DNA from: Ethanoligenens harbinense YUAN-3
Lineage (GTDB): Bacteria; Bacillota; Clostridia; Oscillospirales; Ethanoligenentaceae
Length of the DNA: 64,000 nucleotides
Assembly: GCF_000178115.2 (NCBI RefSeq)
Contig: NC_014828.1
Span: 2,139,310-2,203,309, forward strand
Reading direction: 5' to 3'
A program made the translations under genes and the position numbers. Shown here one piece after another: positions 51,594 through 56,049 of the stretch (the stretch's first letter is position 1; the number at the start of each line of letters is the position of its first letter). Below the pieces are notes generated by a model. That model made no database searches, was not told where the DNA came from, and saw only the letters and a program-made list of their open reading frames with translations.

Positions 51594-52064
51594 TCAAGCG
51601 TGCACATGCCCAACGGTCACAATCTTGACGCCGTCGATCTTTGCCACGCGCTGAGCCAACTCCTCATACAGCTTTGTACCGTCGGCCTGCGAAAGACTCC
51701 CCTGATCTTGCATCGCACGAATCCGCTGCTGCTGTTTTTCCAGATAGCGCTTTTTCAGCGCGTCCAGATTGTTCGTCTGCTTTGCGATCTGCCATGGAGT
51801 CTGCTGCGGATACTGCTGCTTCAGATCTTTGACGCTTTTGCCGGAAAGATCGGCCAGCAATACGAGCGCGACACGGTCACCGCCAATATGGCATTTTTGG
51901 TGTTTTGCAGTGCCTGATCCGGGCGTCCCGGATGAAGCCGATGAAGACGAAGTTCCCGATGATGTGGGCGCGGCGGCTTTCACCGTGGCGGCTCCCGCCG
52001 GGAAAACCAGCGCCGCAGCCAAAGCCAGCGCAGCCGCACCTGTAACAAATCGTTTTTTCAACAT
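51594..52064 (-). CDS. secreted DUF2680-like protein
   Basis: 156 residues. The signal peptide covers 1-25 (FVTGAAALALAAALVF, Ala-x-Ala). A Ser/Gly/Thr-rich linker of about 30 residues follows, then a helical domain: LADLSGKSVKDLKQQYPQQT, PWQIAKQTNNLDALKKRYLE. The latter matches the DUF2680 pattern of short repeats that start with a Leu-Gly-like helix. Function is unknown. Confidence 0.8.
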   Translation of the reverse strand: MLKKRFVTGAAALALAAALVFPAGAATVKAAAPTSSGTSSSSASSGTPGSGTAKHQKCHIGGDRVALVLLADLSGKSVKDLKQQYPQQTPWQIAKQTNNLDALKKRYLEKQQQRIRAMQDQGSLSQADGTKLYEELAQRVAKIDGVKIVTVGHVHA

Positions 52065-53290: not shown

Positions 53291-55276
53291 TCAGACATGG
53301 CGGCGGAACGTGGCCAGCAGAAATGGCGGCAGCGCCCAGATCAGCTGCAGCAACAGCGCTTCCAGCGGTTCCAGCATGCGGCCCTGCGCCAACAGCACAG
53401 CACCTGCCAGGACAAGATTGGCCAGCGCGCCGATCACCTGCATGGCCGCAACGGCGCGGGCGGTGCTGTCCAACCGCACGCATGCGACCACGGCGCGGAC
53501 AAGCGCGACCGCGTGATCCCGTATATATAATGCAGCCCCGTCGTTCTCATCAGCCGACGGCAGCGAGAGCTCTTCTACCTGCCGGTGCGGCAACACCCGC
53601 ACCATGCGTTTTTTCAGCCGGAACTGCTCCGCGAGCATTTCCCGGTTGATGTTCGCATCGGCTGCGCCCGCCAGCAGCCGCACGCCCGTGCGTGTCAGTC
53701 TGCGCAGAACGGTCCGCAGCTTTTTATCCGGTGTATATTGCAAAACAAAGAGCGCCGCCGGCACATCATCCACCACCAGATAGACGAAATCATTGCCTTT
53801 GACGGCATATTTGGCTTCCACTTCCAACAGCATCCGCCCGGTGAGGTCCACACGCTTCTGACGCAGGAGGCTCCGGCTGCCGAGCAGAATATGGCTACCG
53901 TCCACCCATGCTTCGACGCCCATCTCATCAATCACCTGCAGCCGTTCCACCGGCCGCAGGATCGTTTCCCCGCCGTCAAAAAGGCCCCGGATAGCGGAGG
54001 CTATGGACATCTGCGCGGCCGCCGCCACGCTGGCTGCCGCCAGCACGGCGTTTTCCACGCCGTGTTCGGACATGGGCCGGAGCGCGCAGATTTTCACCTG
54101 CCCGTCCGGATAGAGCAGCCGCTCGGGAAGAAACAGCGCATCCGCGGTACCAAACGTGCGCACCGCACCATAACCGGAAAGTGCCGCGCCGCGCTTTTGC
54201 AGGGCTTTTGCAGCAGCCAGAAGCGACAGGTTCACAGAAAAGCCCATCATCAGCGGCGCGCCCACAGAAGCAAACTCGGCAAAAACCAGCGCGCCCTGTT
54301 CCGCCGGGCGATGAAAGAGAAACACGACCGCACAGGCAGCCGCAGCCGCAATGACCAGCACCGCAAGCGCAAGCACCGACGCCACCCGTCCGGTCGGGAT
54401 CTCACCGGTATCCTGCACATCCTGCGCCGGCGCCTGCCTGCCGGGCACCACAACATCCTGCACCCCTTCGGACGGACCGACCTCCACGCTTCGGATAAAC
54501 GCACGGCGCGGCATTTCCATCTTCCGCAGCGCGACGTTGCCCGCCCGCGCCGCGCGGGCAGCCAACAGCCTCGATCCGGTTTCAAAAGTCAGACAGGCGC
54601 ACGCGCTCAAAGCAAACGGCACCGCATCGGCCGCACCTGCGCCATGCAGTACGGCGGGTAAAAAGCCCGCCGCACCACCCAAAAAAGCAAGCGCCGCTGC
54701 GCCGGCCGTTTCCCGCCGCAGCGTAAACAGGGCGGTGAAGCCTTCCGCCAGTATCCGGGCGGCAAAAACACCGGCAAGAAGAAGCAGCGCGGCACCGGCC
54801 GCGGCATAAGGAACCGGCTGCTCCAGATACGCCAGCACGGACGGCAGCGGGTAATGGAACGTGACCGCGCAGACCAGCAGCAAAAAGGCTGCCAGAATGA
54901 CCAACTCCGCCGCCAGACGCGCCGCAAGCCCGGCCGCGCCGCGCCGCGCGGGGGAAGGGAGTTCGTCCGCCTCCGCTTCCGAAACCGTCTGCGGCTTATC
55001 CGGAATACGCTCGATCTGCTCCGGCACGATTTCCGATTCTGCGGGCCGGTCCCCGGTATGTAACGACGCGTCCGCAGGCGGTTCGTTTGGCTCCGGTTCC
55101 AACGGCGGGGCGTCCTGTTCCCCGGGCACCGTCCGTTCCGTCTCCCGCTCGACCTCCACGGCCTGCGCGGCAGCCTCGCGTGCGGCGCGCTGCTTCAGCC
55201 GTTCTTCCGCCTCACGCTCCCACTGTTCCAGAGGGGCCTGCATCCGCCCTCTGTCGATCGGGTCCTCTTTTTTCAT
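53291..55276 (-). CDS. P-type ATPase-like protein lacking the phosphorylation Asp (pseudoenzyme)
   Basis: 661 residues. Residues 1-115 are a charged, Pro/Glu-rich cytoplasmic tail. Hydrophobic segments lie at about 122-140, 155-175, 190-232, 300-320, 335-357 and 610-655. Soluble parts align with the P1B ATPase frame: GVEAWVDGSHILLGSRSLL (453-471) is the N-domain, but at the DKTGTLT site the protein has PERLLYP with Pro384 in place of Asp, TGDN is AGAA and GDGxND is degraded to DENDG. There is no CPx or heavy-metal domain. It is probably catalytically dead. The start overlaps the rlmB stop in ATGA. Confidence 0.8.
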   Translation of the reverse strand: MKKEDPIDRGRMQAPLEQWEREAEERLKQRAAREAAAQAVEVERETERTVPGEQDAPPLEPEPNEPPADASLHTGDRPAESEIVPEQIERIPDKPQTVSEAEADELPSPARRGAAGLAARLAAELVILAAFLLLVCAVTFHYPLPSVLAYLEQPVPYAAAGAALLLLAGVFAARILAEGFTALFTLRRETAGAAALAFLGGAAGFLPAVLHGAGAADAVPFALSACACLTFETGSRLLAARAARAGNVALRKMEMPRRAFIRSVEVGPSEGVQDVVVPGRQAPAQDVQDTGEIPTGRVASVLALAVLVIAAAAACAVVFLFHRPAEQGALVFAEFASVGAPLMMGFSVNLSLLAAAKALQKRGAALSGYGAVRTFGTADALFLPERLLYPDGQVKICALRPMSEHGVENAVLAAASVAAAAQMSIASAIRGLFDGGETILRPVERLQVIDEMGVEAWVDGSHILLGSRSLLRQKRVDLTGRMLLEVEAKYAVKGNDFVYLVVDDVPAALFVLQYTPDKKLRTVLRRLTRTGVRLLAGAADANINREMLAEQFRLKKRMVRVLPHRQVEELSLPSADENDGAALYIRDHAVALVRAVVACVRLDSTARAVAAMQVIGALANLVLAGAVLLAQGRMLEPLEALLLQLIWALPPFLLATFRRHV

Positions 55277-56049
55277 GCTTTACCACCTCCCGTACGGATA
55301 CGGGTCTTGGCCGCTTCATACAGGACGATGCCGGCCGCCACCGAAGCGTTCAGCGACGTGATGCGCCCGCGCATGGGGATGGATACGACCACGTCGCACT
55401 TTTCCCGGAGCAGGCGCGAAATGCCTTTGCCCTCCGAGCCGATGATTACCGCCGCACCGCCGGAAAAATCCGTTTCATAAAACGGCTGCCCGTCCATATC
55501 CGTGCCGTAGACCCAGACGCCCTCTTTTTTGAGTTCTTCCACCGTGGCGGCAAGATTGGACACGCGGGCGACCGGCATGTATTCCAGCGCGCCGCTGGCC
55601 GCTTTGTCTACCGCCGCCGTCAGGCCCACCGCACCACGCTTGGGGATGATGACGCCGTGCGCACCGCAGCATTCCGCCGTGCGGATGATCGCACCGAGGT
55701 TGTGGGGGTCGTTGATCTCGTCGCAGATAACCAGAAACGGCGGCTCTCCACGCTCTTTCGCCGCGTGGAGCATATCGGACACCCCTACATACTCATGCGC
55801 CGCGGCCATGGCCGCCACTCCCTGGTGGCTCATGCCGCCGCAAATGGCATCCAGCTTGACGCTGCTTACATCTTTAATGACCACCCCGCGCTCCCGGCAC
55901 AGCTCTACAATGCGGCGCACCGGCCCGCCGCTGTTGCCTTTGGCGATGAGTACGCTGTCCACCGGGCGGCCCGCACGCAACGCTTCAAACACTGCGTTTC
56001 GCCCCACCAGCACATCTTCCTTGCGTTTTTCCCGTTTATCTGTATACAT
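55273..56049 (-). CDS. rlmB: 23S rRNA (guanosine-2'-O)-methyltransferase, SpoU/TrmH family
   Basis: 258 residues. N-terminal substrate-binding part VLVGRNAVFEALRAGRPVDSV. SPOUT knot motifs: DEINDPHNLGAIIRTAE (motif 1), VIIGSEGKGIS (motif 2) and IPMRGRITSLNASVAAGIVLYE (motif 3). RlmB methylates G2251 of 23S rRNA in E. coli. The stop overlaps the downstream pseudo-ATPase start, so the two are translationally coupled. Confidence 0.93.
   Translation of the reverse strand: MYTDKREKRKEDVLVGRNAVFEALRAGRPVDSVLIAKGNSGGPVRRIVELCRERGVVIKDVSSVKLDAICGGMSHQGVAAMAAAHEYVGVSDMLHAAKERGEPPFLVICDEINDPHNLGAIIRTAECCGAHGVIIPKRGAVGLTAAVDKAASGALEYMPVARVSNLAATVEELKKEGVWVYGTDMDGQPFYETDFSGGAAVIIGSEGKGISRLLREKCDVVVSIPMRGRITSLNASVAAGIVLYEAAKTRIRTGGGKA

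Follow-up and report, generated by a model that had tools for sequence, protein, structure and literature searches.

Few descriptions exist of catalytically dead P-type ATPases, proteins familiar from textbooks as pumps. The copper-transporting P1B members (LpCopA, PDB 3rfu and 4bbj; ATP7B; CopA) share with the family described here the whole-length fold, eight membrane helices arranged 4+2+2, the glycines of the N-domain and the Asp of TGD. The family differs from them in lacking DKTGT, TGES, GDGxND, CPC, the His of SEHP and the hinge Lys, in its reduced actuator domain, and in a long acidic tail that replaces the metal-binding domains. The nearest precedent found is human TMEM94/ERMA, also a P-type-like membrane protein in which TGES and GDGxND are lost and whose ATPase activity is disputed or absent. 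ERMA features DKQGI and GSSANL, and ATP-dependent Mg uptake has been reported for it (PMC13322241), whereas P-type activity has been argued against (PMC12134183). By analogy, ERMA would also serve as a warning, since ATP-dependent uptake is reported by one group for a protein that has likewise lost TGES and GDGxND. Nevertheless, ERMA keeps the catalytic Asp (in DKQGI) and has ten membrane helices, whereas the present family is bacterial, P1B-derived and has eight; where ERMA has Asp, the protein studied here, P0001, has Pro384. An order-wide, single-copy and constrained pseudo-pump represents a clean test case for the P-type fold without catalysis, and its fixed position behind an rRNA methyltransferase gene raises the possibility that, in a major group of anaerobes, ribosome assembly is connected to the membrane. 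Nothing relevant to pseudo-P-type ATPases associated with rlmB was found in the literature searched, where the family is undescribed.

P0001, its gene context and its fold

Within the window, i.e. the 64,000-nucleotide stretch of Ethanoligenens harbinense YUAN-3 DNA analysed here, P0001 is encoded on the minus strand at 53291..55276 in an intact open reading frame of 661 residues. It follows rlmB (55273..56049, minus strand), encoding a 23S rRNA 2'-O-methyltransferase in which both Pfam domains, SpoU_methylase and SpoU_sub_bind, are present. The rlmB stop is overlapped by the ATG of P0001 in a 4-nt ATGA (AAAGCATGA), and a GGAGG ribosome-binding site lies about 10 nt 5' of the P0001 start, inside rlmB (site and overlap, 55273..55290, minus strand). 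The intact frame and the ATGA overlap, both claimed in a first-pass annotation of this DNA, are thus confirmed: P0001 is translationally coupled to rlmB, and its relatives also lie close behind that gene. Elsewhere in the window, an open reading frame at 51594-52064 (minus strand) encodes a 156-residue protein with a signal-peptide-like start and without a Pfam match.

No Pfam match was obtained for P0001. The NCBIfam CopA model matches residues 290-570 at a score far below its curated cut-off (48 bits, E 4e-13), and a sequence search of the PDB reached CopA 3rfu at E 1e-7. Family-averaged hydropathy gives membrane segments in a 4+2+2 pattern. An AlphaFold model computed from residues 100-661 and 54 relatives has a pLDDT of 88.7 and a pTM of 0.89, and copper P1B-ATPases rank at the top across its whole length (Foldseek, VIA-align), with E 3e-16 against 4bbj and Z 22.9 over 470 residues against LpCopA 3rfu. 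Superposed on CopA by itself, the N-domain agrees to 2.2 A across 117 residues; the overall rmsd of the model to a P1B-ATPase is large, at 9.1 A, as the domain movements of this superfamily would give. According to both sequence and predicted structure, the eight-helix membrane domain and the N-domain are preserved, as is most of the P-domain fold, and fold and topology are those of a P1B-type ATPase. The earlier annotation had recognised the N-domain and transmembrane layout from the letters and had proposed structure prediction as a check, with a lack of similarity to P-type ATPases as grounds for giving up its reading; the model instead returned the P1B fold.

The former catalytic head

Columns of the family alignment were counted over about 102 members and compared with 14 control pump records. 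DKTGT is present in all control pumps and in none of the 104 family members, at this position or elsewhere in the protein. As already noted in the first-pass annotation, P0001 aligns to the motif without gaps (VLDKTGTITEG against FLPERLLYPDG), with PERLLYPDG replacing DKTGTLTxG at residues 384-392 (54101..54127; this and all other P0001 features are on the minus strand). The Pro at the catalytic position, by contrast, does not define the family, being unique to P0001 among the 104 members. In the DKTGT columns Asp occurs in 41/102 members and the first Thr in 12, while Lys, Gly and the last Thr occur in none. GDGxND is likewise absent from all 104 members. The TGDN motif, also reported as lost in P0001, is so only in part: in the equivalent segment (residues 534-545, 53642..53677) TGDN reads AADA, and Asp540 and Asn542 are kept, both conserved in the family, where the TGD Asp is present in 96/102 members.

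The losses extend to the remaining domains. The actuator domain is a reduced remnant without TGES (residues 240-295, 54392..54559), seen as two strands in the model; the TGES column is largely deleted across the family, and three TGE[SAP] strings elsewhere in members are chance occurrences. In the sixth membrane helix, the equivalent of M4 (residues 330-360, 54197..54289), CPC reads APL with Pro341 kept; family-wide, Cys is retained at each CPC position by 4 of about 102 members and the Pro by 77/102, and the second Pro of the TP motif is shifted or lost. The N-domain (residues 393-500, 53777..54100; column counts and VIA-align rows) has lost the SEHP His, as have all 101 members scored, and keeps Gly453 and Gly466, conserved in 101 and 102 of about 102 members, respectively. 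The hinge Lys survives in 1/102 members, and the conserved P-domain Asp in none of about 102, its place being taken by Tyr in 93/102 members (Tyr514 in P0001, 53735..53737).

Several features are newly conserved. Counted from the old catalytic Asp, these are an acidic residue ([DE]) at +3, an aromatic one ([FY]) at +5 and Pro at +6, to which Tyr514 and the sequence Asp540-x-Asn542-[IV]-T are added. P0001 keeps Tyr389, Pro390, Tyr514, Asp540 and Asn542, and has Pro384 and Leu387 at the old Asp position and at +3. By homology, the loops bearing these residues would line the former phosphorylation pocket, which therefore seems to have been rebuilt rather than to be drifting.

With these losses, members of the family very probably do not pump. 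Residual chemistry is possible in some of them, since Asp survives at the catalytic column in about 40%. It could be argued further that the family comprises unconventional but active ATPases, or HAD-type phosphatases, that use another acidic residue, as claimed for ERMA. The surviving Asp, the frequent second acidic residue at +3 and the widely retained TGD Asp would fit such an enzyme, and ERMA itself offers a precedent. Nevertheless P0001 reads Pro-Glu-Arg-Leu at the catalytic site; at HAD phosphatase motif I, DxDx(T/V), it has PERLL, and the region of the acidic motif IV is lost in the family. None of the 102 members has the Lys, Gly or last Thr of the motif, a single one keeps the hinge Lys, the metal-binding GDGxND and the ATP-contacting His are lost throughout, and ERMA is contested and needs its Asp. 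We regard this possibility as very improbable.

The membrane domain invites another explanation, that ATP coupling was lost and the membrane path now passively conducts an ion or a small molecule, gated by the head. All eight membrane helices are kept, and so is the helix-breaking Pro of M4 in 77/102 members. However, the two metal-binding Cys residues of CPC have disappeared from all but 4 members each, the second TP Pro is displaced or lost, and on coarse inspection the membrane segments showed no new arrangement of polar residues, so that a channel or passive facilitator appears unlikely.

Distribution, selection and association with rlmB

Of 59 relatives searched in six frames, 56 contained matches; a few of the weakest are ordinary pumps, e.g. 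L080 and L081, which were used as controls in the alignment. A 43-member profile was built from the fetched loci; P0001, which is part of it, scores 496 bits, and loci found through rlmB, outside the profile, score 226-609 bits. Of 148 genomes of the order that are at least 95% complete, 144 contain one and only one match at a threshold of E 1e-60. Outside the order, no genome in the class and phylum samples reaches half of the score of P0001, and the matches opened there, at most about 209 bits, have intact DKTGT, TGES or TGEP, CPC, TGDN and GDGxND. The sampled family forms one clade with support of 100/100. Members are labelled Oscillospiraceae, Ruminococcaceae, Negativibacillus or Clostridia MAGs, which presumably places them in the GTDB order Oscillospirales. 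No dedicated Pfam or NCBIfam model matched the family. A viral origin was considered and set aside, as no relative was found in viral contigs with P0001 as a query that reaches close relatives only; one weak plasmid match occurs in Subdoligranulum.

Pairs of family members within genera give dN/dS values of 0.05-0.21 for the core and 0.15-0.33 for the tail, compared to 0.01-0.11 for rlmB where synonymous sites are not saturated; these are values for the family, the nearest relative of P0001 in the data being about 27-29% identical. The core values, obtained in a check that the first-pass annotation had proposed, show purifying selection: the family is functional and not decaying. The idea of a decaying copper-pump pseudogene could draw on the loss of all catalytic motifs and on two members interrupted by a stop or frameshift (L033:4125-6557 and L068), which may be assembly errors. 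Given the low dN/dS in several genera, retention across the order and the newly conserved residues, it is hardly credible, and it was rejected for the family on selection and distribution. The initial reading of P0001 as having lost catalysis and retained the P1B fold holds, and extends across the order. Since the residues for pumping are absent and yet selection is strong, the protein is probably maintained in the membrane for a job other than pumping.

Whether linkage to rlmB is conserved had been raised along with that reading, and it is: the pseudo-pump gene lies downstream of rlmB on the same strand in 46/46 loci with both genes scored, mostly within 70 nt. The linkage persists at about 20% identity while other neighbours are shuffled, and a search for a universal downstream partner gave none, an EF-G-like gene being next in only 7/47 loci. 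As a sample not selected on the pseudo-pump, 80 loci were collected through rlmB; a strong member lies downstream in 54, no member is present in 14 that offer over 2 kb of sequence for one (a few of these rlmB-only cases being MAGs labelled e.g. Oscillospiraceae bacterium, which may belong to the order), and the remaining loci are ambiguous or not long enough. Among rlmB genes without a downstream member are those of Clostridium, Paenibacillus, Fictibacillus and Anaerotignum. Within the order, rlmB was found in 143/148 genomes, with both genes on one contig in 138/143 (listings compared by eye). The four genomes without a member (G254, G264, G271, G279) also lack a close rlmB. As two of them (G254 and G264) share a genus, joint loss of both genes is suggested, but assembly gaps can mimic it. 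The only copy with readable context that is truly unlinked to rlmB (L073:6024-9671) lies about 20 nt behind a putative ObgE-like gene, which would also encode a ribosome-assembly factor.

Such linkage could also mean that an unrelated membrane protein sits behind rlmB for its expression and has nothing to do with ribosomes. That rlmB stands alone outside the order, that one copy is unlinked and that downstream genes vary would all agree with this. On the other hand, the linkage has outlasted divergence to about 20% identity amid shuffled neighbours, genomes without the pseudo-pump gene also lack rlmB, and the unlinked copy, a single case, adjoins another putative ribosome-assembly gene. Mere hitchhiking thus has a low probability; it would be compatible with a scaffold role in another process.

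The N-terminal tail and a second pseudo-pump

The Pro/Glu-rich N-terminal tail described in the first-pass annotation was recovered in P0001, at 114 residues rather than 115 (residues 1-114, 54935..55276), and is assigned to the cytosolic side. It is short for the family, whose tails have a median length of 275 residues and a high content of Glu, Asp and Pro. A motif, (F/Y)S(L/V)(D/E)(D/E)ILxE, occurs in 48/100 tails where 1 is expected (score threshold 10.2, set at 1% of shuffled sequences), and 41 of the 48 occurrences are located in the first 70 residues of the open frame. When the member L139 was modelled at full length, its tail was predicted to be disordered except mainly for the motif, with a helix at residues 7-21 at modest confidence. 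The motif is absent from P0001 (score -3.3 against the threshold of 10.2). As a general motif it was discarded: its clear matches in 12 genomes are family tails or the second pseudo-pump described below.

It is reasonably probable, and our best inference, that the family acts as a membrane-anchored scaffold or sensor that recruits a cytosolic partner; the motif conserved in the tails of relatives adds weight to this. The inert head would hold a fixed or ligand-set conformation through the rebuilt pocket, and the long acidic tail would recruit a soluble partner, many members doing so by means of the short helical motif close to the tail tip. Against this reading, P0001 and about half of the tails lack the motif, and outside the order rlmB works without a pseudo-pump gene. 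With a short tail lacking the motif, the sequence implies that any tail-mediated recruitment must be altered or lost in the P0001 lineage. Gene order points tentatively to a partner on the ribosome-assembly side (RlmB or 50S assembly), although genes can stay linked for the sake of joint expression even if their products do not interact physically. It is tempting to speculate, as a distant prospect, that a copper pump became a membrane docking platform for 50S maturation, with a tail recruiting RlmB or an assembly intermediate; rRNA 2'-O-methylation would then take place at the membrane or be signalled to it.

A second pseudo-pump was encountered in one genus. In genome G037 it is a P-type ATPase with NKTGT and without CPC or GDGxND (L215:4535-6424, minus strand), and a 44% identical relative from the same genus (L246, genome G300) has SLSGT in place of DKTGT. 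Like the P0001 family, these proteins have the P-type fold, have lost the catalytic Asp and carry the same N-terminal tail motif; unlike it, they keep TGDN and SDHP, were seen only in the one genus and arose independently, branching with Zn/Cd-type pumps and not with the rlmB-linked family. The copy in G037 adjoins a fructose-bisphosphate-aldolase-like gene rather than rlmB. As both lineages carry the motif and branch apart, these are two dead P-type ATPases of separate origins with one shared tail motif. A P-type ATPase with DKTGV and without a tail (L247, genome G606) branches with this second lineage and is a possible intermediate.
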